Positions 21,206-55,574 of a DNA stretch of 64,000 bases are shown here, piece by piece. The stretch covers positions 1 through 64,000 of the forward strand of contig JADLHZ010000072.1 in assembly GCA_020848545.1 (NCBI GenBank). Reading direction: 5' to 3'. A program made the position numbers and the translations under genes. The stretch is from Deltaproteobacteria bacterium (GTDB taxonomy: Bacteria; Myxococcota; JADLHZ01). Every line of letters starts with the position of its first letter. The stretch's first letter is position 1. The notes below the pieces were generated by a model. The model made no database searches, was not told the origin of the DNA, and saw only the letters and a list, made by a program, of their open reading frames with translations.

Positions 21206-22006
21206 CTATGACTTTGCGGGTACGGTCGTCAATCCAAACAAGCGGAGCGCATTCACGGTCGTGTCGTGGGCGAGCGCTTCTGGCGTGGTGCCGCGGATCT
21301 CGGCGATCGCTTCGACGATCGTCTTCAGGTGGCGCGGTTCATTGCGGCCCGGGCGATGCGGCTCCGGCGTCTGATCCGGCGCGTCGGTCTCGACGAGGAG
21401 GCGATCGATCGGCACTTTGCGAGCGACGGCCGGCGCCTTCACCGCCGTCTTGAAGGTGACGCTGCCGGCGAGCGAGATGTGCAGGCCGAGCGGCAAGTAC
21501 GCGTCGAGCAGCGCTTCACTGCCGCTGTAGCTGTGCACGACGCCGCCGGCTTTCGGCAGGCCGTCTCGGCGCAAGATCTTCAGCGCCTCTTCGTGGGCTT
21601 TCAAGATGTGGAGGATCACCGGGAGATCGTATTCGCGCGCGAGGGCAAGCTGCGCGCGAAAGATGCCCTCCTGCGTGGCGAGCACCGCGCGGCGCTCTTT
21701 CGTGTAGGCGTCGAGGCCGATCTCGCCGATCGCGACGGGCATCGTCAGCGTCGGGTGCGCGAGCTCGGCTGCGAGCGCCGCGACCATCGCTTGGGTGTCG
21801 GTCTCGGCGACGAGCTGTGGGTGCACGCCGTACGAGACGCAGACGTCGGGGTTCTTCTTCGCGATCGCGTCTTCATCGCGCCAGCCGTCGGGCGACACGC
21901 CGGCGAGGAGAAAGCCGGTGACGCCGGCGGCGCGCGCCTGTTCGAGCACGGCCTCGTGATCGCCGATCATTCGGTGATCGTGGAGGTGGCAGTGGCTATC
22001 GAACAT
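21206..22006 (-). CDS. tatD: TatD-family metal-dependent hydrolase/DNase
   Basis: A 266-residue TIM-barrel hydrolase with all metal ligands: DSHCHLH at the N-terminus, GEIGLD, VILH and HSYSGS, and ETDAP. Family members are Mg-dependent 3'-5' DNases/RNases used in DNA repair or nucleic acid turnover. The gene overlaps the preceding small membrane-protein gene by 11 nt and is followed 10 nt later by tcdA, so these are probably co-transcribed. A broader assignment than TatD (for example YcfH or YjjV) cannot be excluded. Confidence 0.92.
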   Translation of the reverse strand: MFDSHCHLHDHRMIGDHEAVLEQARAAGVTGFLLAGVSPDGWRDEDAIAKKNPDVCVSYGVHPQLVAETDTQAMVAALAAELAHPTLTMPVAIGEIGLDAYTKERRAVLATQEGIFRAQLALAREYDLPVILHILKAHEEALKILRRDGLPKAGGVVHSYSGSEALLDAYLPLGLHISLAGSVTFKTAVKAPAVARKVPIDRLLVETDAPDQTPEPHRPGRNEPRHLKTIVEAIAEIRGTTPEALAHDTTVNALRLFGLTTVPAKS

Positions 22007-22211
22007 CGTCGAAGCGCCTGGCCTCTTTCTTCTTGTGAAACCAGTACGCGACGCCGAAGCCCGTGACGAGCAACGCGAAGACGCCGAACACGATCGTGAA
22101 GGCCGTGCCGAACGCCTCCGCCAGCGGCTCGGTCTGTTCGTCGTGGCGCATGATGATCACGATCACCGTGGCGACGGCGAGGACCAAGAACGCGATGCGC
22201 GGTTTCGTCAT
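21996..22211 (-). CDS. small two-helix membrane protein
   Basis: About 71 residues from ATG 22211 (a TTG two codons earlier is possible). Two hydrophobic helices (AFLVLAVATVIVII and AFTIVFGVFALLVTGFG) flank a short acidic loop, and the tail is basic then acidic (HKKKEARRFDDVR), placing both ends in the cytoplasm. No family recognised. The 3' end overlaps the tatD start by 11 nt, implying coupling. Confidence 0.7.
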   Translation of the reverse strand: MTKPRIAFLVLAVATVIVIIMRHDEQTEPLAEAFGTAFTIVFGVFALLVTGFGVAYWFHKKKEARRFDDVR

Positions 22212-22256
22212 GGCCAATTGTCACTTTTCGCTGGCCAAAGGACAAGCGCCAAGCGG

Positions 22257-44335: not shown

Positions 44336-44782
44336 TTATCGCAGCCGCGGCTCCTCTGTTGCCCCGAGCGTCGCGCGAAAGAAGGGCCACGCGTCATAGA
44401 GGTAGAGGGCGAACGGTGCCCACCAGAGCAGGTCGTTCCCGGCGCACAGGACAGCGGACTTCAGCGGCCACTGTCCGCTGGCGATGAGGCCGATGATCCC
44501 CACAGGGCCGAGCACCTTGCCGAGCAAGCCGATCGCCGCCATCGCAAAACCGTGCTCGGGTCTGCGGGCGATTTCGATGTATAGAAGCCCATACACTCCG
44601 ACGATCATGCCGATGCACATGAACATGGCTGGGTGGTTCAAGAGCGGCATGCCTGAGAAGCGAAAGAGCCACTGTGGATCGATCGCGGCATAGAGGCCCC
44701 ACGCGATGTTGTAGATTCCTGCCGCGAGGAACACGCCCCGGTGCCAGCGACGGCGTGCGATCACGTGCGTGCCCATGGCCAA
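44336..44782 (-). CDS. small four-helix membrane protein, 148 aa
   Basis: Four hydrophobic helices (GVFLAAGIYNIAWGLY, FMCIGMIVGVYGLLYI, AAIGLLGKVLGPVGIIGLI, LLWWAPFALYLYDAWPFF). Pattern and the GKV motif resemble the protein at 36670-37071. No named family or catalytic residues. Its start overlaps the 3' end of the preceding 179-residue gene by 22 nt and its stop is 6 nt before the barrel-like gene, so this is a five-gene minus-strand cluster with DUF4166. Confidence 0.7.
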   Translation of the reverse strand: MAMGTHVIARRRWHRGVFLAAGIYNIAWGLYAAIDPQWLFRFSGMPLLNHPAMFMCIGMIVGVYGLLYIEIARRPEHGFAMAAIGLLGKVLGPVGIIGLIASGQWPLKSAVLCAGNDLLWWAPFALYLYDAWPFFRATLGATEEPRLR

Positions 44783-45300
44783 GCGCTGCGCGGCACTTTG
44801 AGGACGGCGAGCAAGTCGCGCACGCCGGAAGTGAAGACGCCGCCGGCCATCAGCAGCATCACGACGCGCAGCGGCTCAGGCACTGCCGGCGGCGCGTAGA
44901 CGAGCGCGGTCTCGGCGTGAAACCAACCCCACACTTCGGGCAACCAGTACGCGAGCGCGGCGCCATAGACGAGCGCCATCAGCGTGTGCGACGCGCGCTC
45001 GCCGGCATAGACGCCGCCACGCTCCTTGCGCGCCGTATCCTCGACGATGAAGTCGGCGATGGTGATACCGATCTCGGCGGTCACCATGGCGAAGAGCAAC
45101 AGCGCGAGCGCGCCTTTCCACGCATAGAACGGGAGCGTCGTGAAAATGAGCGCGTAGATGAAGTCGCGCCCGGCGTGTAGGGCGAGCTCCGTGCGCGCCG
45201 CCGGCAATGCGACGAGGCGCGCGCGGTACTCATGATAATAGAGCGTGTCGAACGCGCCGATCACGCCTTGGGCCGTAAGCAGCCAGAGGACGGTGCTCAT
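44761..45300 (-). CDS. membrane protein of unknown function, 179 aa
   Basis: ATG 45300 overlaps the TGA of the DUF4166 gene by 4 nt, which fixes the start; the frame extends far upstream only as shadow sequence. Five or so hydrophobic helices begin immediately (TVLWLLTAQGVIGAFDTLYY). A charged motif YYHEYRARL near the first helix and GRDFIYALIF later could be metal-binding or catalytic, but I recognise no family. It is coupled to DUF4166, with which it may form a unit. Confidence 0.75.
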   Translation of the reverse strand: MSTVLWLLTAQGVIGAFDTLYYHEYRARLVALPAARTELALHAGRDFIYALIFTTLPFYAWKGALALLLFAMVTAEIGITIADFIVEDTARKERGGVYAGERASHTLMALVYGAALAYWLPEVWGWFHAETALVYAPPAVPEPLRVVMLLMAGGVFTSGVRDLLAVLKVPRSAWPWART

Positions 45301-45854
45301 GTGACGACCTCGAGGCGGCCGCTGTAGCGCAGGATCAAGCCGAGCACGGGCGCCTCCATGCGGATGTCGCTCACCATTGCGCCGTGCTCTTCGTGGACGC
45401 GCGCCGAGACGCGCACCGCGAGGAAGCTGGGCAGCGGAAGCCGCAGCGGGCCGAGGCGAAGGGCGTGGCGGACTTGGCGAAACACGAGCGCGCCTTGCTC
45501 GTTGACGAGGGCGAAGCGGACTTCGGTCGTGCCTACGCGCTCGACGATGTGCCCGCCGTCCTGCCACTGCTCGCTGACCATCGCGACGCCGCCGAAAATC
45601 CGCGACCAGCGCTCGCCCCTCGCCGTCGCGCTGACTTCTAGGCGCACGTCGACGCCGTCGCCGGCCCGCGGCAAGCCCGCGAGGCGCACGAGCACCCGGC
45701 CGATCCAAAAGCGGCTGTGCTGTACCGCAAAGACGCCGCGCGCTCTCAGCGACCGCCCGCCCACGTGGAACGCGCGCACCACCGGCGAGAGTTCGTTGAA
45801 GCTTGCCCCGAGCACCGACGGATAGAGTCCCACAGCGACAGAAAGGTAGCACAC
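45297..45854 (-). CDS. DUF4166 domain protein
   Basis: A 185-residue soluble protein matching DUF4166: LYPSVLGASFNELSPVVRAFH at the N-terminus and beta-rich sequence thereafter (GERWSRIFGGVAMVS, LRLGPLRLPLPSFLA). The start may be GTG 45854 or the GTG at 45833; neither has a clear ribosome site. DUF4166 proteins are often near NAD-dependent oxidoreductases; none is here. The repeat array begins 13 bp upstream of the start, in the region that would carry the promoter. Confidence 0.8.
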   Translation of the reverse strand: MCYLSVAVGLYPSVLGASFNELSPVVRAFHVGGRSLRARGVFAVQHSRFWIGRVLVRLAGLPRAGDGVDVRLEVSATARGERWSRIFGGVAMVSEQWQDGGHIVERVGTTEVRFALVNEQGALVFRQVRHALRLGPLRLPLPSFLAVRVSARVHEEHGAMVSDIRMEAPVLGLILRYSGRLEVVT

Positions 45855-45866
45855 CCGCCGTCAAGC

Positions 45867-46011
45867 CTCCCCGGTCCCTTTTCCGCTGTCCCTTCTCCCC
45901 GGTCCCTTTTCGGCGCGGTCTCCCCGGTCCCTTTTCGGCGCGGTCTCCCCGGTCCCTTTTTCGCTGTCCCTTCTCCCCGGTCCCTTCTCGGGGCCTCCCC
46001 GGTCCCTTTTC
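45867..46011 (+). repeat. array of six CTCCCCGGTCCCTTTTC repeats
   Basis: Copies at 45867-45883, 45895-45911, 45920-45936, 45945-45962, 45973-45989 and 45995-46011, with a partial copy to about 46030. Spacers are short (5-11 bp) and themselves repetitive (GGCGCGGT or CGCTGTCCCTT). The array fills the gap between the divergent DUF4166 and EXPERA genes. The same unit occurs at 10494-10509 (inverted) and 57728-57773. It resembles a REP-like dispersed element, not CRISPR. Confidence 0.9.
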
Positions 46012-46066
46012 GGGGCCCTTTTCGGGGCGTAGTCGCGGGCGCCGGAGTTTGATACGAGGCGACGCC

Positions 46067-46570
46067 ATGCAAGCGCCTGCGCCATTGACGGTCCGACCGC
46101 TGCGAGAACGGCCGGTCGACCTGTTCTTCGTCGTCGCGTTCGCGACGTTTTGCTGCACGTCGATCTTCTTCGACTCGCTGAACGCGTTCGGCATTCCCAT
46201 CACGCCCGACGCCGACAACGCGATCGCGCGCATGACCTACGAGCTCTACGCCAAGGACACCGACCTCTTGCTCGCCGCAAACCCGTGGATGGTTCAGCTC
46301 GAGCTGTGGATCTCCACCTTCGTCTTCGCGCCGTTCTACGTCGCTGCGATCTACGCGCTAGTGAAGGGCCGCGACTGGATCCACATCCCGGCGATCGCGT
46401 TCGCAGCAGCGATGGTCTACAGCCTCGTCCTCTATCTCGGGCACCAGTTCGTCCCACCGTACGTGTCGCCGAACCCAGTGAAGGTCTTCGCTGCGAACGG
46501 CCCCTACGCGCTCATCGCCGTCGCGTTCGCGTACCGCATGCGCAAGCCGCGCCCCTTCTCGGAGACCTGA
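46067..46570 (+). CDS. EXPERA/TMEM97-like membrane protein
   Basis: About 167 residues from ATG 46067 (the longer frame upstream is translation of the repeat array). Four membrane helices, with RPVDLFFVVAF at the first and LLLAANPWMVQLELW, FVFAPFYVAAIYAL and an aromatic/Pro-rich third, match the EXPERA domain of TMEM97/sigma-2 receptor and EBP sterol isomerases. In eukaryotes these proteins act on or bind sterols; bacterial members are few and uncharacterised. Its TGA shares a base with the ATG of the M18 aminopeptidase, so the pair is coupled. Confidence 0.75.
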   Translation: MQAPAPLTVRPLRERPVDLFFVVAFATFCCTSIFFDSLNAFGIPITPDADNAIARMTYELYAKDTDLLLAANPWMVQLELWISTFVFAPFYVAAIYALVKGRDWIHIPAIAFAAAMVYSLVLYLGHQFVPPYVSPNPVKVFAANGPYALIAVAFAYRMRKPRPFSET

Positions 46571-47865
46571 TGCCCAAGAAGCACGCCCATGCTGCCGCCG
46601 AAGATCTGATCGCGTTCATCGACGCGTCGCCTTCGCCCTTTCACGCCGTCAAGGAGATCGCCCGCCGCCTCGAAGCCGACGGCTACCAAGCGCTCGACGA
46701 AAGCGCCGAGTGGAAGCTGCAGAAAGGCGACAAGCGCTACGTCGTCCGCCAAGACAGCTCGATCCTCGCCTTCACGGTGGGCCGCGCGCCGCTCGTCAAA
46801 GCCGGCTTCACCATCGTCGGCGCGCATACGGACTCGCCGTGCTTGAAGCTGAAGCCGCGGCCCGCGCTCGCGAAGAACGGCTTCGTGCAGCTCGCGTGCG
46901 AAGTGTACGGCGGCGCGCTCCATTCGACGTGGCTCGATCGCGATCTCGGCGTCGCCGGCCGCGTTACGCTGAAGAACGGTAGCCGCTTCGTCGAGCGCAC
47001 CCGCCCGCTCCTGCGCATCCCGAACGTGGCGATCCACTTGAACCGGAACGTGAACACCGACGGCTTGAAGCTGAATCCGCAAACGCAGCTCGTGCCGATC
47101 TTCGCGCTCGACGACAGCGAAAAAGCGAAGGAGCGTGCGTTGCCGAGCCTGCTCACGCTGCTCGGGGTGAGGAACGCGGCCGACGTCACCGACTTCGACC
47201 TTTGCCTCTTCGACACCCAAGGCGGCACGTTGTCGGGCCGCGACGACGAGCTCATCCACTCGGCCCGCCTCGACAACCTCGCGAGCTGCCACGCCGGGCT
47301 CTCAGCGCTGCTCGAAGCGGGCTCGAAGAACGCCGACGCGACGCGCGTGCTCGTATGCTTCGACCACGAAGAGGTCGGCAGCGAGTCGGCGCAAGGCGCG
47401 GCCGGGCCGTTCCTGAACCAGACGCTCGAACGACTCGTCGAAGTGCTCGCGGCCGGCGAAGCACAGGCGTTTCAACGCGCGATCGCGAGCTCGTTCTGCG
47501 TCTCGGCCGACATGGCGCACTCCGTTCATCCGAACTACGCCGACCTGCACGAGCCCGAGCACATGCCGAAGCTCGGCAAAGGCCCGGTGATCAAAGCGAA
47601 CGCAAGCCAGCGCTACGCGACGAGCGGCACGTCGGCGGCGCGCTTCTCGCTCGCTTGCAAGGACGCCGGCGTCACGCCGCAGCGCTTCGTCGTGCGGAGC
47701 GACATGGCCTGCGGCAGCACGATCGGGCCGATCACCGCCGCCGGCCTCGGCATCACGACGGTGGACGTGGGCAATCCGATGCTGTCGATGCACTCGATTC
47801 GAGAGATGGCAGCGGCGGCCGACGTCGAGCCGATGATTCGCGTGCTCGCGCGGCTGTACCGCTAA
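46570..47865 (+). CDS. M18-family aspartyl aminopeptidase
   Basis: A 431-residue cytosolic metallo-aminopeptidase (DNPEP/ApeB family) with the dinuclear-zinc ligands: GAHTDSPCL (His), SARLDNLAS (Asp), DHEEVGSES (Glu-Glu) and MAHSVHPNY (His). SDMACGSTIG near the C-terminus is typical of the active core. It removes N-terminal Asp or Glu. Translation is coupled to the EXPERA protein. Its last 113 bp overlap, on the other strand, the 3' end of the exosortase gene. Confidence 0.93.
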   Translation: MPKKHAHAAAEDLIAFIDASPSPFHAVKEIARRLEADGYQALDESAEWKLQKGDKRYVVRQDSSILAFTVGRAPLVKAGFTIVGAHTDSPCLKLKPRPALAKNGFVQLACEVYGGALHSTWLDRDLGVAGRVTLKNGSRFVERTRPLLRIPNVAIHLNRNVNTDGLKLNPQTQLVPIFALDDSEKAKERALPSLLTLLGVRNAADVTDFDLCLFDTQGGTLSGRDDELIHSARLDNLASCHAGLSALLEAGSKNADATRVLVCFDHEEVGSESAQGAAGPFLNQTLERLVEVLAAGEAQAFQRAIASSFCVSADMAHSVHPNYADLHEPEHMPKLGKGPVIKANASQRYATSGTSAARFSLACKDAGVTPQRFVVRSDMACGSTIGPITAAGLGITTVDVGNPMLSMHSIREMAAAADVEPMIRVLARLYR

Positions 47866-48460
47866 CGACACCGATAACCAGCGCGATCGCCGCGGCGACG
47901 AGACAGACGAGCGCGGCGTGCGCGAAGAAGCGCGGATCCTTCGCGGCGCCGTTGAGCCAGGGCACGACCACCGTGAGCCCGAGGTAGCACGCGAGCGGCA
48001 CGTACCAGCGCGCGCGGCGGACGACGCACACGTAGAGCACCGACAACCCGACGAAGTAGATCACGGTGCCTTCGAGCCGGTGCAGTGTATCCGCGTTGAT
48101 CCACTGCGGCGGCGCGCTCGCGTGCGAGACCGCGATGGCGATGCGCACGGCGTTCATCACCACGGCCGACAGGTAAGCGATCGCGGCGTTCGCGAAGATC
48201 CCGCGCCGCGAGACGCAGAGCAAGATGAACGCGGTGATCGCGTAGTTCACGCCGGCGCAGGGCTTGGCGATCGCAAACGCGAGCGGGCGGTGGACGAAGC
48301 CGAGCTCCGCTTCGTAATCGAAGGGTAGGCCGGTCAGCAGCTCGACGAGCGCGGTCGTGGGTCGCAAAATCCAGGCAAGATCGGCCACGGGCGCCGTCGA
48401 GTAGTGCTGCTTCAGCGCGAACGAGAGCAGGAGGACGACGGCGGCCCGCGCGGCGATCAC
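47753..48460 (-). CDS. xrtK: exosortase (XrtK-like)
   Basis: A 235-residue polytopic protein with about seven membrane helices, starting at GTG 48460. The exosortase/archaeosortase catalytic triad is present: Cys68 in AKPCAGVNY, Arg106 in VMNAVRIAI and His127 in TLHRLEGTV. These enzymes cleave a C-terminal sorting signal from surface proteins. Its start overlaps the stop of the VIT-vWA gene by 4 nt, and that protein ends in a matching signal, so it looks like a dedicated pair. The C-terminal 38 or so residues overlap the M18 gene and may be poorly conserved. The K class is assigned by length and motif pattern only. Confidence 0.75.
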   Translation of the reverse strand: MIAARAAVVLLLSFALKQHYSTAPVADLAWILRPTTALVELLTGLPFDYEAELGFVHRPLAFAIAKPCAGVNYAITAFILLCVSRRGIFANAAIAYLSAVVMNAVRIAIAVSHASAPPQWINADTLHRLEGTVIYFVGLSVLYVCVVRRARWYVPLACYLGLTVVVPWLNGAAKDPRFFAHAALVCLVAAAIALVIGVVSGTAARARESSARRRPPLPSLESSASTASDCPRPPS

Positions 48461-50424
48461 GCGACTCCCCGAGCGCGGCGGCGGCCGAGCACGAACGCGA
48501 TCGCGACGACCAAGAGCAAGATGACGAGCTCCGGCTCACTCCCGTTCGTCACGCCGACGGCGTGGTCGGACACGCCCTCGGGCATGGGCAGCGGCTGCGT
48601 CACGTCGGTGCCGGCCGCGTTCGTGCGCACGCGCTCGTGCACCGCGATGAACGACGTGTACTTCGTGAGCAAGCTGTAGCCGAGGCCGATGTTCACGATC
48701 TGCGCACGCGTATCTTGGTCGTCGTTGCCGCGGCCGAAGTCCGCAAGCGTCGTCAGTCGCGAGCGCGCCCAGAGCTGGCGCAGCGCGCGGTTCTTCGGCG
48801 ACGGCATGTCTTTGGTGATCGCGAAGTGTTGATCGTACGAGCCGCCGGCGGTGTAGCCGCGCAAGCTCAACGCGCCCTTGCCGTTGCCGCGGTACTTGCC
48901 GGTGACGACGACCGGCCGCGACGCGAACACATCCGGGATCGTCTTCGGCTCCATGTCGTAGAGCTCGACGCCGTCGCCTTGCAGCGTGAGGCCCGTCAGC
49001 ACGGGCGACGCGATGTATTCGCGAAAACGCTCGGCCGAGGCGTTGGCCTCCTCCGGCTTCGTGATCACGAACGGCTCGCCCATGCCGGCGCGCGCGACGC
49101 CTTCGATCAAGTGCCGGTTCACGGCCGAGCCGATGCCGAACGAAAAGACGTTGGTCGCGTTCAAGTGATCGCGGATGAAGTCGAAGGCTTCGCTCTCTTC
49201 GGCGATGTAGCCGTCCGTGACGACGATCATGCTGCGCGCGACGCCGTCGGTCTTTGGCAGCGCAAACGCGGTCTGCAACGCGGCGCAGAGCTCGGTGCCG
49301 CCGCCGCCGCGTTGGTTGTCGATGATGCGCATCGCGGCCTGCAGGTTCTCGTCGGTCGCCGGCATAGACGTCTCGGACAGCGTCGCGGCGCGGCCGGAGA
49401 AGAGCACGACGTTGAAGCGCTCGTACGGGCGCAGGTCGGCGAAGAGCCGGCGCATCAACGTCTTGGCGGTGTCGAGCGGGAAGCCGTACATCGAGCCCGA
49501 CACGTCGAGCACGAAGATGTACTCGCGCGGCGTCACCATATCCTGAACGGTGCGCTTCGGCGGCTCGGCCATCAGCAAAAAGTACTTCTCGTCGCCGTGC
49601 TCATAGAGCATCACGCCGCTCGCGACTTTGTCCTGCGCCAGCGCGTACTCGAGGATGAAGTCGCGATTCGCAGGGTTCTTCTCGAAGTGCGAGTCAAACT
49701 CGAGGGCCATCTCCGAGCCAGGAAGAAAACGGATGCGGTGCGACGGCGAGCCCGCGCGCTGAATCGGCAGACCAGCGGCGATCGTCGCCTGCAGCGTGAA
49801 CGCCATCGGGCTCGGCTGATTCTCGTGCAGGTACGGTGTGACGATGAACTGATCGACCGGCGTCGCGTCGGCGAGGAGCGTATGTGAGTAGCGCGGACCG
49901 ACCACGGTTGGAAACACGAAGGAGTATACGCCGTCGGTCGGCACGAGCAGCTCGGTGTACGAGAGCTCGACGCGAATGGTGTCTCCCGGGAGCACGTTCG
50001 ACACGTTCATGGTGAAGACGTTCGGGCGCTCTTGCGTGAGCAGCGACGCGCTCTTTCCCGCCTCTTTGGCGGCCTTGAACTCCTTCTCGGCCTGCGCGCG
50101 TTCTTTGATCTTCGCCGTGATGACCTGCTCGCCGACGATCATGCGCATCGCGTGCACGGCGGCGCGGGTCGACGCTGGGAAGACGTAGCGCGCGTGAATC
50201 GGCGTCGCGCCTTCGTTGGCGTACGTCTGCGTGATCATCACCTCGGCGACCACGCCAGTGACCGCGACGTCGACGTGCGTGCTCTTCAGCGGCAGCGGAT
50301 CGACGCCTTCCGCCGCGCCCTCGACGACGAAGTACGGCGCCAGTGTCTTTTCGAGCGGCGCGTCAGGATCGGCAAAAACGGCGATGGGAACCAAGAGAAG
50401 GACGACGAAGGCGATGGTGCGCAT
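48457..50424 (-). CDS. VIT-vWA protein with C-terminal exosortase sorting signal
   Basis: A 655-residue exported protein; ATG 50424 gives a signal peptide (RTIAFVVLLLVPIAVFA). The VIT domain spans about 35-170 (HARYVFPASTRAAVHAM, TLLTQERPNVFTMNVSN-type core), and the vWA domain about 300-480 with MIDAS motif DVSGSM, Thr in GGGGTEL and Asp in VTDGY. The C-terminus is a three-part sorting signal: SEPEL, then the helix VILLLVVAIAFVL, then RRRARG. It overlaps the exosortase gene by 4 nt. VIT-vWA proteins paired with sortases or exosortases are known from other phyla; a structural or adhesive role is likely. Confidence 0.85.
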   Translation of the reverse strand: MRTIAFVVLLLVPIAVFADPDAPLEKTLAPYFVVEGAAEGVDPLPLKSTHVDVAVTGVVAEVMITQTYANEGATPIHARYVFPASTRAAVHAMRMIVGEQVITAKIKERAQAEKEFKAAKEAGKSASLLTQERPNVFTMNVSNVLPGDTIRVELSYTELLVPTDGVYSFVFPTVVGPRYSHTLLADATPVDQFIVTPYLHENQPSPMAFTLQATIAAGLPIQRAGSPSHRIRFLPGSEMALEFDSHFEKNPANRDFILEYALAQDKVASGVMLYEHGDEKYFLLMAEPPKRTVQDMVTPREYIFVLDVSGSMYGFPLDTAKTLMRRLFADLRPYERFNVVLFSGRAATLSETSMPATDENLQAAMRIIDNQRGGGGTELCAALQTAFALPKTDGVARSMIVVTDGYIAEESEAFDFIRDHLNATNVFSFGIGSAVNRHLIEGVARAGMGEPFVITKPEEANASAERFREYIASPVLTGLTLQGDGVELYDMEPKTIPDVFASRPVVVTGKYRGNGKGALSLRGYTAGGSYDQHFAITKDMPSPKNRALRQLWARSRLTTLADFGRGNDDQDTRAQIVNIGLGYSLLTKYTSFIAVHERVRTNAAGTDVTQPLPMPEGVSDHAVGVTNGSEPELVILLLVVAIAFVLGRRRARGVA

Positions 50425-50507: not shown

Positions 50508-51410
50508 TTATCCCACTTTTTTCTTGGCGACGGCGACGTCGTTGAGCTTCGCCAGCACCTCACCGACGAAGGTCTCGTAGGCAACGGCGACTTTACTGGC
50601 CTTGTCGAAGTCGTAGATCGTCTTCCCCTCGAGCTGCGCCCGCGGGGCGGCGGTACCGACCGGGATCTCGGTGTCGAAGACCAGGCTGCCGAACATGTCG
50701 TGCAGCGACTGCTCCATCGTCGTGTTCAGCGACTTGTTCCGCCGGTCGACGCGCGTCGGCAAGACGCCGAGCACGTTCAGGCGGTGGCCGAGGCGCGCCG
50801 CGATGGTCTCGACGGTCTGCAAGATGTCGCCCACCCCTTCGAGCGAGAGCACGGTGAGGTCGCTCGGCACGATCAAGTGATCGGCGGCGAGCAGCGCGTT
50901 CAGCGTGAGGTTGCCGAGGTTCGGCGGGCAATCGAAGACGATGTAGTCGTAGTGCGTGCGCGTGATCTCGATGGCGCTGCGCAGGATGAACTCTTTGCCG
51001 ATCTTCGTCGCGAGCAGGCTCTCGGTATCGTTCAGCGTCTTGTCGGAAGGCGTCAGGTGCAAGTCGTCGACGCTCGTCGCGTAGGCGGCCTCCATCAGCT
51101 CGCGCGCCCTCGTGCGATCGCCGAGGAGGAGCTGCGAGATCGTCGGCAGGTCGGTCGGGACGACGGAGCGAAATGCGGTGGCGATGTGCGCCTGCGAGTC
51201 GAGGTCGACGAGCAGCACGCGCTTGCCGGCGAGCTTCGCGAGGCCTGCGGCGAGGCTGACGGCCGTCGTCGTCTTGCCAACGCCGCCCTTCGACGCCGCG
51301 ATCGCGAGCACGCGCGCGCGCCGGTGTCCGCGCTCCAAAGTAGAACCGCCGGCACCAGGGACGAAGCGCTTCAACCTCTCGGTCAACATCGATCGTAGAT
51401 CACTCGCCAT
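50508..51410 (-). CDS. ParA/MinD-like ATPase
   Basis: A 300-residue ATPase. ATG 51410 is preceded by GGAGGG, which decides the start over the longer frame. The deviant Walker A ASKGGVGKTTTAVSL has the signature lysine; LLVDLDSQAHIA is the switch I/Walker A' region and YIVFDCPPNLGNLTLNALL the Walker B. The protein should bind DNA non-specifically and form dynamic gradients for chromosome, plasmid or protein positioning. No ParB gene or parS-like palindrome is nearby, so it may be an orphan that positions another cargo such as a chemosensory array or polysaccharide machine. It lies downstream of ompA with opposite-strand neighbours on both sides. Confidence 0.9.
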   Translation of the reverse strand: MASDLRSMLTERLKRFVPGAGGSTLERGHRRARVLAIAASKGGVGKTTTAVSLAAGLAKLAGKRVLLVDLDSQAHIATAFRSVVPTDLPTISQLLLGDRTRARELMEAAYATSVDDLHLTPSDKTLNDTESLLATKIGKEFILRSAIEITRTHYDYIVFDCPPNLGNLTLNALLAADHLIVPSDLTVLSLEGVGDILQTVETIAARLGHRLNVLGVLPTRVDRRNKSLNTTMEQSLHDMFGSLVFDTEIPVGTAAPRAQLEGKTIYDFDKASKVAVAYETFVGEVLAKLNDVAVAKKKVG

Positions 51411-51520
51411 GCGTCGTATCCCTCCGACACGCACGCTAAGGGAGAAGCGCCCGGCGATCAATCACAATGTGTAAAGTTTATGACGTCGAGATTTCGCTAC
51501 GTCGGGACGCGCTGCGACGA

Positions 51521-52996
51521 CTACGGAGGAGATTCGCGCACGGCCGCGTCTTCGTCGAACGACGGCTTCTCCGGCACCATCTCGTCCGGGTCGAGCTCCT
51601 GCAGCTCGATGATGAACTCGACGCGGCGGTTGATCGCGCGGCCACGCGGCGTGCTGTTCGAGGTCTTCGGCTTGCGGAAGCCGTAGCCTTCGGACTTCAA
51701 GCGCGAGCCGGCGACACCATGTGACGTGAGGTAGCGCAGCACGCTGAACGCGCGGCGCGTGGACAAGTCGATGTTATAGCTATCGGTGCCGACGTTGTCG
51801 GTGTGGCCGTCGATGCGGATCAAGCGCAGGCGCGGGTTCTTCTTGATGATCTCGACCACCTTGTCGAGCAGCGGGAACGAGAGCGCGTTGATCTTGTCCG
51901 AGTCGAACTCGAAGTAGACCTTGTCGTTGATCGCGATCTTCTCGCGCGTGATCTCGACCTTCGGCTCGATCGGCGGCGGCGGGGGCGGCGGCGGTGCGGG
52001 CGCCGGTACCGGCTCGATGATCACGGGCTCGGGCTCGGGCTGCGACGCCGGCTCGGGCTTCTTCTTCTTTTGCGGCGAGAACGCGAGGCCGGCGAGCACG
52101 CGAAACTGCGGCGCGCCGTAGCCCGTCGTGATGCCGGTGCCGGCGCCGACGTTGATCAGGAACCAGCCGGCGCGAATCTTGAGGCCGGCGAGCGCGTCGA
52201 TCGGCGCTTCGTCGAGCGAGATGCGGCTCACACCATCGGCACGCGCTTTGGGAAAGCCCATGGCGCCATAGATCTCGACGCCGGCCGTCAGCAGGTTCTT
52301 CACGATCTCGTAGGACAGGTGCGCGCCCCACACGAGCTCGTGGCCAAAGACGATGTTGTCGAGCGTCGCCGGCGCGCGCAGGCGGATGCCGACATCGATG
52401 CCCGTGTTGAAGCGATCTTCGACCGCACGAAAGTTCGCCATCAAGCGCGGCACGCCGGTGACGGTCTGCTCGCCGGTGAAGTTCGCCTTGCTGCCGGTGG
52501 GAAACGTGAGCATCACCGCGGCGCCCAAGTGCACGTGCTCGGTGTTCAGAAACTGCACCTTCGGTTGCAAACGCAGATCGCCGAAGGTGACGTTCGCGAG
52601 CGCCTGCGCCGGCTCGGTCGGTGTCGCGGGCAGGCCGGCGCCGCTCTGAAACGGCGTGAACGGGATGCCGACGCCGATCTCGAGGATCTCGAACAACGCG
52701 AGCGCGCCGACGACGTCGACCGCGAGCTGATGCGAGACGACCTCGCGATCGAAGGTGGTGGTGCCGTCCGCGTTCAGGCGGAAGCGAACGAGCGGCGCGC
52801 GGGCGTAGTTGAGCCACAGCGCGGCGTAGGGCTCCAAGTGGTAGCCGACCTCGCCGTACTCGCGGCTGAAGAAGCCCTTGGGACCAGGCGTCGGGTTGAA
52901 GAGCTGAATGTTGTTTCCGCGCGCGGCGGTCTGCGCCATGGCCGGCGAGGTGACGCCGATCACGAGGAGCAGGCTGCAGGCACAGGCGCGAAGCAT
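51521..52996 (-). CDS. OmpA-family outer-membrane protein
   Basis: A 491-residue protein. ATG 52996 gives a good signal peptide (LRACACSLLLVIG...AMAQ) and has GAGAAAG upstream; an ATG at 53029 would add a non-leader stretch. Residues 25-290 form a barrel-like region. A Pro-rich linker (PEPVIIEPVPAPAP) leads to the OmpA peptidoglycan-binding domain (about 370-480) with FDSDKINALSFPLLD and the DxR-type motif IDGHTDNVGTDSYNIDLSTRRAF. It should anchor the envelope to peptidoglycan. It diverges from the 808-aa unknown across a 150-bp promoter region. Confidence 0.92.
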   Translation of the reverse strand: MLRACACSLLLVIGVTSPAMAQTAARGNNIQLFNPTPGPKGFFSREYGEVGYHLEPYAALWLNYARAPLVRFRLNADGTTTFDREVVSHQLAVDVVGALALFEILEIGVGIPFTPFQSGAGLPATPTEPAQALANVTFGDLRLQPKVQFLNTEHVHLGAAVMLTFPTGSKANFTGEQTVTGVPRLMANFRAVEDRFNTGIDVGIRLRAPATLDNIVFGHELVWGAHLSYEIVKNLLTAGVEIYGAMGFPKARADGVSRISLDEAPIDALAGLKIRAGWFLINVGAGTGITTGYGAPQFRVLAGLAFSPQKKKKPEPASQPEPEPVIIEPVPAPAPPPPPPPPIEPKVEITREKIAINDKVYFEFDSDKINALSFPLLDKVVEIIKKNPRLRLIRIDGHTDNVGTDSYNIDLSTRRAFSVLRYLTSHGVAGSRLKSEGYGFRKPKTSNSTPRGRAINRRVEFIIELQELDPDEMVPEKPSFDEDAAVRESPP

Positions 52997-53147
52997 CTTC
53001 TTACACTTTCTCAGGATGAGTATCGGCAAGAAGCCCGAATGTTTGCGGGGATTTGCCTCTTCGCGTGAAAGCGCACCCTCGGTTGCGCCTGCGAAGAATG
53101 GCGTCGACGAGCGTCTTCTGGGACAACGAACCCAGGAGATCGATCAT

Positions 53148-55574
53148 ATGGTGGGCGACGCAGGGCGGGCAGCACCGAAGGTTCAGCCGTTTCAGCTGAA
53201 TTTCGATCAGGTCAAAGAGCTCGATAAGAAGGACGGCAAAGACGGCCGCGTCACCATCGATGGCGACAAGGGCGTCACGATCAAGCCGAAGAACGATCAA
53301 GTCGGCGACGAGAAGTTCTTCGCGTTCGTGAAGGATCTCTACCCGAAGCTGACCGACAAGCAGATTCGCGAGTCGGAGGTGCTCAAGCAGAAGAAGTCGG
53401 ACTGGAACAACCAGCGGCCCACCTACTTCCCCGCCGCGCTCGATCTCGATCCGCCGAAGCGGACGAACAAGGAGGAAGCGAAGCCCGCCGACAAGCCGAA
53501 GCCGGCGGACAAGAAGCCGGCGGGCAAGGATGCGATCGCTGCGAAAAACGTGGACGACTTCGGCAAGCACGTCGGCGAGTACGCCGCGAAGAACAAGCCT
53601 CCCGCGGACAAGAAGAGCCCCGAGTACGAGAAGTGGCGCCACGGCGCGGCCAAGGATGAAGGCGCGTGGCTGGCAGGACGTCTCGGTGAGAAGAACGGCG
53701 CCCCAGATGAGACCGTCGCGCTGATCAAGAAGCGCAAAGACTATTCGCCGCAGTTCTTCCCGACGCTGATCAAGGACAGCGACGATCCGAAGGTGCGCTC
53801 GACGATCGTCGACAGCAGCTGGAAGTGTCTCAGTGACAACGAGAAGCTCGGTGTCATCGCCGAGATGGCGAAGAAAGCGATCGATCCCAACCTCGCCGTC
53901 AACAGCGATCTGCTGACCATCCAGGCGATGTTCGGTCGGTCCTCGGTTGCGGAGCTCGGGCCGCTCGTCGAGGAGGCGATCAAGAACGGCCTCCCGATCG
54001 ACAGCCTCCTCGCCGGCGCCGACGCGACGACACAAGACAAGATCTGCGAAGCGTACGCGAGACGCATCGCGAACAAAGATCCGACTGGCACCGTAACGAA
54101 GCTCCTCGACGCCTACGACAAGGACCCCGACTTTCAGAAGCTGTGCAAAGAGGCGACGCCGCCGATCACGAAGGAGGACATCTATCGCCTCGTCGCCGGC
54201 AACGACGTGCACCGAGGCCGCGATGGAAAACCTTCGCCGATCGAAGCCTTCATGAAGAAAGCGGACAGGTCGCCGGCAGACAAGGCGATGAACCGCGCGG
54301 CGGCGCTGATTTGTGCCGGCGAGGCGGAAGGGGCGCGCTTCAACTCCCAGGTCGCCGACGCCTACGCCAAAGGCGGCACCGCGAAGGATTCGAAGGAGAC
54401 GAAGGGGAATCGCGAGGCCTTCGCGATGCAGGCGAAAAAGTACGCAGACATCGCCGCGCTCGACGACCGGGGTGCGACCGCCTTCGCGAAGCGCGGCGGG
54501 CAGGCGCCGAAGCAAGCCGACGCGCCGAAGCAAGCCGACGCGCCGAAAGACCAAGCGCCGGCGAAGCCCACCGCGGCGTCGCTCTGGGAGACGGCGCTCG
54601 CCAACCCGACGACCGACGCCGGCAAAGCCGCGCTGAAGGATCTTCGCGACTCCGGAAAGCTCGATGACTTCGTCTCGAAGGGCTTGAAGACCAAGCCCGA
54701 CGCCACGGCGAAGCTGCTCGCGAGCTCGCCCGAGATGGTCGACTGGACAGTGAAGCAGCTGGGCAAGGATCGCACCTTCGCCGACAACATGGTGCGCGGC
54801 TTCGAGGAGAAGGGCGTCAGCCGCGATCATCCGTCATTCGAGGCGCTGTTCACCGCCGCGATGGGCGACGCCGCGGCGCGCGAAGAGCTGCTCGACTTCG
54901 CGCAGAACGGCGGGCCGAAGACCGAGAAGGCGCTCGGTGTGTTGACGCAGATCTTCCTCGAACAAGATCCGGCGGCGAAGGGCGCGCTCACCCACGCGAA
55001 GACCGCCAAAGACTTCGCGGTGAAGTACGGGCCGGAGGTGACGAAGACTGGGCTCGTCGTCAGCCAAGAAGGATCGCCGGCGGCCCTGCTCGCTGGGCAA
55101 TCACCGGCGGTGACGAAGCCAGACCTCGACAGCTGGTTCGCGACGGGCGTGATGCCGGACTCCGTGCGCAGGTTCCTCGCGAAGGTCGAGAAGGGCCCGC
55201 GCACGGACGCCGAGCTGGCGCTCGCCAAAGAGATGGTCGATGTCGCCGGCAAGCTGTTCGCCGAGCGCGGCGAGCAGCTGAAGAAGTCGCCGAAAGCGGT
55301 CGACCACGACCTCGCGCAGTGGGGCTCGATGAAGGACCACGCGAAGTACAAGAAGGGCTCACCGAGCTCGGGCGTACGCAACTATCCGGATCAGGTGAAG
55401 GACCACGCCGACAAGCTCGCGAAGATCCAGCCGAAGAGGGCAGACGCGCCGAAAGCCGACGCAGCACCGGTCGATCCGAAGGCGAAGAAAAACGATGCCG
55501 GCGCGCCGCAAGTGCTCCCGCCACCGATGGACGATGGCATCGGCAAGAGCGGGAAGCCCACGGTCGAGGCCTGA
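53148..55574 (+). CDS. unknown 808-aa charged protein
   Basis: I do not recognise a family. ATG 53148 is chosen for its AGGAG at 53134-53138; ATGs at 53016 or 52908 would add a Met/Arg-rich tail. No signal peptide or membrane segment. Residues about 15-45 carry an acidic loop (LDKKDGKDGRVTIDGD) that resembles a degenerate calcium-binding motif. A Pro/Lys-rich linker lies near 110-150 (KPADKPKPADKKPAGK), and a second low-complexity linker near 460. The remainder is helical with short repeats of moderate similarity. It is divergent from ompA and convergent with the FTCD gene; no function can be assigned. Confidence 0.7.
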   Translation: MVGDAGRAAPKVQPFQLNFDQVKELDKKDGKDGRVTIDGDKGVTIKPKNDQVGDEKFFAFVKDLYPKLTDKQIRESEVLKQKKSDWNNQRPTYFPAALDLDPPKRTNKEEAKPADKPKPADKKPAGKDAIAAKNVDDFGKHVGEYAAKNKPPADKKSPEYEKWRHGAAKDEGAWLAGRLGEKNGAPDETVALIKKRKDYSPQFFPTLIKDSDDPKVRSTIVDSSWKCLSDNEKLGVIAEMAKKAIDPNLAVNSDLLTIQAMFGRSSVAELGPLVEEAIKNGLPIDSLLAGADATTQDKICEAYARRIANKDPTGTVTKLLDAYDKDPDFQKLCKEATPPITKEDIYRLVAGNDVHRGRDGKPSPIEAFMKKADRSPADKAMNRAAALICAGEAEGARFNSQVADAYAKGGTAKDSKETKGNREAFAMQAKKYADIAALDDRGATAFAKRGGQAPKQADAPKQADAPKDQAPAKPTAASLWETALANPTTDAGKAALKDLRDSGKLDDFVSKGLKTKPDATAKLLASSPEMVDWTVKQLGKDRTFADNMVRGFEEKGVSRDHPSFEALFTAAMGDAAAREELLDFAQNGGPKTEKALGVLTQIFLEQDPAAKGALTHAKTAKDFAVKYGPEVTKTGLVVSQEGSPAALLAGQSPAVTKPDLDSWFATGVMPDSVRRFLAKVEKGPRTDAELALAKEMVDVAGKLFAERGEQLKKSPKAVDHDLAQWGSMKDHAKYKKGSPSSGVRNYPDQVKDHADKLAKIQPKRADAPKADAAPVDPKAKKNDAGAPQVLPPPMDDGIGKSGKPTVEA

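Follow-up and report, generated by a model that had tools for sequence, protein, structure and literature searches.

A VIT-vWA protein with a C-terminal sorting signal and a small exosortase are encoded by overlapping genes in a 64,000-nucleotide stretch of DNA (the window) from a Deltaproteobacteria bacterium of the phylum Myxococcota (assembly GCA_020848545.1, contig JADLHZ010000072.1, positions 1 to 64,000). The two genes very probably form a dedicated exosortase K (XrtK) system in which the client is cut by XrtK, 'dedicated' denoting one enzyme with a single target per genome (PMC3237569). The order of the genes, their family membership, the conserved residues of the enzyme, an invariant Glu-Pro in the client tail, the presence of one client and the joint history of both genes were all observed directly. 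The relevant features are as follows.

48457 to 50424, reverse strand: VIT-vWA client, 655 amino acids; ATG start at 50424; Pfam VIT 116.3 bits, VWA_3 69.3 bits
48460 to 48543, reverse strand: tripartite sorting signal of the client, GSEPEL / VILLLVVAIAFVLG / RRRARGVA, read from the open reading frame and matched by a tail profile
48457 to 48460, reverse strand: 4-nucleotide stop/start overlap GTGA, the shared bases being read on the coding strand
47753 to 48460, reverse strand: XrtK, polytopic, 235 amino acids; GTG start at 48460; TIGR04287 and TIGR04178 profiles

An earlier sequence-only reading of this DNA had described a VIT-vWA protein ending in SEPEL, a hydrophobic helix and RRRARG, and this is what the frame running from 50424 to 48457 on the reverse strand encodes. 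The client begins with a hydrophobic, signal peptide-like N-terminus, followed by a VIT domain at 46-156 and a VWA domain at about 301-455 (Pfam), the latter with the metal-site residues DVSGS...T...D. Its C-terminus reads GSEPELVILLLVVAIAFVLGRRRARGVA, and the best 15-residue stretch of the tail helix has a mean hydropathy of 3.4.

The adjoining exosortase scored 85.4 bits against TIGR04287 (exosortase K; cut-off 55), the profile comparison proposed with the original description, and 27.2 bits against TIGR04178, the general exosortase/archaeosortase signature (cut-off 23). Residues 68, 106 and 127, previously singled out as the exosortase Cys, Arg and His, are indeed C, R and H and are invariant among 38 aligned XrtK sequences from several phyla, as are K17, P34, A69, G70, N103, G131 and L139. 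The 4-nucleotide overlap of the two genes was also confirmed, bases 48457-48460 reading GTGA, and this arrangement makes translational coupling of the client and xrtK likely. An AlphaFold2 model of XrtK is mostly helical and confident (predicted local distance difference test score, pLDDT, 93.3; predicted template modelling score, pTM, 0.86). Its low-confidence part is the last ~25 residues, encoded in the overlap with a convergent M18 aminopeptidase gene (46570-47865) that covers 113 nucleotides (47753-47865) at the 3′ end of the exosortase frame.

Recurrence of the pair in other genomes

XrtK was detected in 7 of 195 genomes of the window's phylum, each time over the TIGR04287 cut-off. Apart from the window's genome, five of these carry a VIT-vWA gene beside it (48-54% identity); in the remaining one (G153), XrtK lies on a short contig and the VIT-vWA protein is matched by no more than a fragment. 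Scanning a collection of 84,980 species yielded 40 XrtK loci, mostly from Desulfobacterota, with some from Myxococcota, Acidobacteriota and Pseudomonadota (Gammaproteobacteria) and one from Bacteroidota; the two scans have loci in common (L026 is L010, and L062 matches L011). A VIT-vWA gene lies immediately upstream on the same strand in 38 of these 40 loci, and the pairing is therefore far beyond chance.

Glu-Pro is invariant across all client tails, within the consensus [VG][PSAD]EP[EG]L (the motifs of L032 and L049, for which an automatic parse had taken an upstream EP, are VPEPEV and VPEPEL). The XrtK-associated clients form one clade (support 100/100), separate from the phylum's remaining VIT-vWA proteins. 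Distances among the enzymes correlate with those among the clients (r = 0.83; 0 of 5000 permutations as high), as expected for a pair that was inherited or moved together. In the client tree the window protein falls in a myxobacterial-Acidobacteriota clade of 10 rows (support 100/96), which the enzyme tree does not resolve. A contig scan with a single window protein as query returned no relatives. One XrtK/VIT-vWA pair with a divergent AEPGR tail (L053, 7906-10732) lies on a contig labelled Lachnospiraceae (Bacillota), which is possibly mis-binned.

Predicted processing and number of clients

By analogy with other exosortases and archaeosortases, from which we infer cleavage, an acceptor and the final location of the client, the VIT-vWA protein would leave the cytoplasm by the Sec route and be retained in the inner membrane through its C-terminal helix. 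GSEPEL would be recognised by XrtK, a predicted polytopic cysteine transpeptidase-like enzyme, and the client would be cut near GSEPEL/EP by Cys68, presumably helped by Arg106 and His127. The new C-terminus would probably be transferred to an acceptor, leaving the VIT-vWA domain exposed at the cell envelope. The surface adhesin or structural protein proposed in the earlier reading is still plausible; that the vWA domain serves in adhesion or protein binding is a guess. The exosortase might instead merely cleave, releasing the VIT-vWA domain to the periplasm or medium without anchoring. The tail by itself is silent on what follows cleavage, and no established acceptor for bacterial exosortases was found in the literature, both of which leave room for release; we consider this outcome unlikely, though the most credible of the alternatives.

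Dedication to one client was examined in the window and in the whole genome. Within the window, the VIT-vWA client is alone in having a credible tail of this type. A loose filter (EP, helix and basic residues) returned two more open reading frames, 44761-46233 and 21996-22217, both lacking the motif and the Arg cluster, in line with the earlier claim that no other window protein carries the signal. All sites encoding [G/V]xEP[E/D/G][L/F] in the 8-Mb genome were fetched and translated: in 19 of the 94 a stop follows within 50 codons, and a single one of these, the window client, has a hydrophobic helix and an Arg cluster before the stop. A tail profile built from 31 XrtK-client tails, the window tail among them, was run against the genome with 150 of 316 candidates scored. 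It matched the window tail at 27.2 bits, the sole match covering the EP motif; the other matches begin at profile position 6 or later and comprise the helix and Arg part alone. Neither of the two VIT-vWA paralogues in the genome (on contig C24, 36%, and contig C25, 32%) has a client-type tail; one has a TonB_C-like domain at its C-terminus. Since the tail of motif, helix and Arg cluster was found in one genome protein only, the single client is well supported. The sequence-only reading, which had paired a dedicated enzyme with a single VIT-vWA client and suggested both the search for other SEPE-helix-Arg C-termini and a profile of client tails, is thus upheld on this point.

Many PEP-CTERM systems have at least 20 targets per genome (PMC3237569), and XrtK could likewise be a general exosortase with many substrates, among them the neighbouring client. 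This is contradicted by the absence of any match over cut-off to the Pfam PEP-CTERM model (PF07589, cut-off 20.7) in the whole genome, the window tail not being among the genome matches, and by the two tail searches, neither of which gave a second motif-bearing protein. Moreover, the signal used for bulk sorting in this genome is MYXO-CTERM, for which 15 tails exceed the cut-off (for example C72:68940-69020). By these tails the genome is recognisable as Myxococcota and as having a bulk sorting system of its own, in agreement with its earlier description as myxobacterium-like. A general role for XrtK is consequently very improbable.

Some points weigh against a dedicated XrtK system. The motif scan was restricted to G or V in the first position and L or F in the last, so that it could overlook a client whose motif differs, and the tail-profile search was limited to the candidates scored. 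Fold comparison of the XrtK model with the PDB gave no match at E <= 0.001; the exosortase fold thus apparently has no solved relative there, and hence no structure for comparison. Finally, biochemical data on any XrtK were not found in the literature searched.

Relation to known systems

The SEPEL motif and the operon had both been considered distinct, and neither view can be maintained. At L057, a locus from Bacteroidota, the gene after XrtK (183 bits) encodes an MSEP-CTERM protein (TIGR04286, 1239 bits) with the tail MSEPELWWLLGILGVFFGWKQWQRK, ending MSEPELWWLL; the motif was therefore already tied to XrtK and is not new. SEPEL is a variant of the client consensus, GSEPEL occurring also in an Acidobacteriota copy (L055) and grading into VPEPEL elsewhere. 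As for the operon, its enzyme is exosortase K, and the pair is widespread in Desulfobacterota and present also in Acidobacteriota, other Myxococcota and Gammaproteobacteria.

The client itself lies under every curated client model. The best, TIGR03788 (marine sortase target), gave 404.8 bits (cut-off 551.65), and TIGR04286 (MSEP-CTERM) gave 10.3 bits over the C-terminal stretch alone (cut-off 150); judged from these alignments, the client has the tail motif in common with MSEP-CTERM, not family membership. This, and the fact that the clade carrying the window pair has two genes only, could speak for a new class of exosortase that uses a SEPEL code of its own, but such a class is mainly refuted by the TIGR04287 score of the enzyme and by the occurrence of SEPEL in the MSEP-CTERM family and L055, and we give it very little credence.

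The XrtK/MSEP-CTERM pair (TIGR04287/TIGR04286) resembles the window pair in passing the XrtK model, in its SEPEL tail and in the adjacency of its genes, and the MSEP-CTERM protein is also VIT-related. It is, however, a polytopic protein of 920-960 amino acids from Bacteroidota, whereas the shorter window client has a signal peptide and a soluble VIT-vWA body. The class GN (marine) sortase and its target (TIGR03784/TIGR03788) share with the window pair a homologous client body, one adjacent client and a tripartite tail, but the enzyme is an unrelated sortase and the motif is LPXTG-like. One such system, in a genome of the window's phylum (G183; L137, 5196-7969), has a VIT-vWA protein with the tail LPRGGTG beside a class GN sortase (195.5 bits). 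Membership of TIGR03788 goes with an adjacent class GN sortase, and the gene adjoining the window client encodes XrtK. GlyGly-CTERM vault-type proteins (PMC3237569, Fig. 3C) likewise have a homologous VIT-vWA body with an interchangeable tail, but their enzyme, rhombosortase, is a serine intramembrane protease and the motif is GlyGly.

A 2011 paper (PMC3237569) had already shown the tails of VIT-vWA (vault-like) proteins to be GlyGly-CTERM, LPXTG or PEP-CTERM according to the cognate enzyme, and the window pair thus belongs to a known type of system. Literature on XrtK, or on exosortases and VIT, contained nothing on an XrtK/VIT-vWA pair beyond that paper. What may be new is the XrtK/VIT-vWA branch, to whose clients no curated model is devoted, together with its link to CreB/CreC.

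The dedicated XrtK system adds a clean single-client exosortase, and its small size and probable translational coupling to the substrate recommend it as a minimal setting for an old question, namely what is attached by exosortases to the proteins they process. That one VIT-vWA body is found time and again with unrelated enzymes (sortase, rhombosortase, exosortase) points to its surface display as the trait kept by selection.

Adjacent CreB/CreC genes and a second exosortase-VIT pair

Of the 38 paired loci, 28, mostly in Desulfobacterota, have CreB-like regulator and CreC-like kinase genes adjoining XrtK. CreBC is known from several gram-negative bacteria, in which this two-component system is conserved (PMC4689548, PMC5402928). 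Profile scores reached, for example, 321.7 bits for CreB at L027 (2299-4403; cut-off 273) and 606.8 bits for CreC at L031 (10810-12914; cut-off 356). The contig of L028 holds merely part of the regulator, and at L039 the two-component genes are convergent with the XrtK/VIT-vWA pair. Ten loci were negative, the contigs of L054 and L063 ending too close to tell. The window's client-tree clade has no adjacent CreB/CreC (L013 and L015 have little downstream sequence), and no CreB over cut-off was found elsewhere in the window's genome, the best reaching 225.6 of 273 bits. No paper linking CreBC to exosortases was found. We tentatively raise the possibility, which we rate below even, that XrtK/VIT-vWA forms the centre of a so far undescribed cassette of four genes, with the CreB/CreC envelope-sensing system controlling, or being controlled by, the sorted VIT-vWA surface protein and the myxobacterial-Acidobacteriota clade having the two-gene core only. 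As a clue to what the cassette responds to, the CreBC link can be tested.

Two neighbours in the window were rejected as cassette members: ParA (50508-51461), since no ParA cluster recurs at other XrtK loci, its frame being masked by an opposite-strand frame in the neighbour comparison, and an OmpA-family gene (51521-53029), which is not recurrent at XrtK pairs and reaches 61 of 152 bits for PdsO. On the strand opposite to the latter, an open reading frame of 888 amino acids (52908-55574) has no match in Pfam (E up to 0.001) or NCBIfam (E up to 0.01).

Elsewhere in the genome (contig C25, 9201-13566; L016), the gene for an XrtO-like exosortase (222 of 250 bits) precedes one for a VIT-containing integral protein of the TIGR02921 family (494 bits, cut-off 200), whose C-terminus reads TPEPEEWMLLFAVLALIAYMRSPWRDRGRTLSS (TPEPEEW-helix-RDRGR); no earlier description of this pair in the window's genome was found in the literature. 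As in the XrtK pair, an exosortase stands beside one VIT-containing client with an EP-helix-Arg tail, but the exosortase class and the client family are different. Besides MYXO-CTERM sorting, the genome thus has two exosortase-VIT pairs that are independent of each other.
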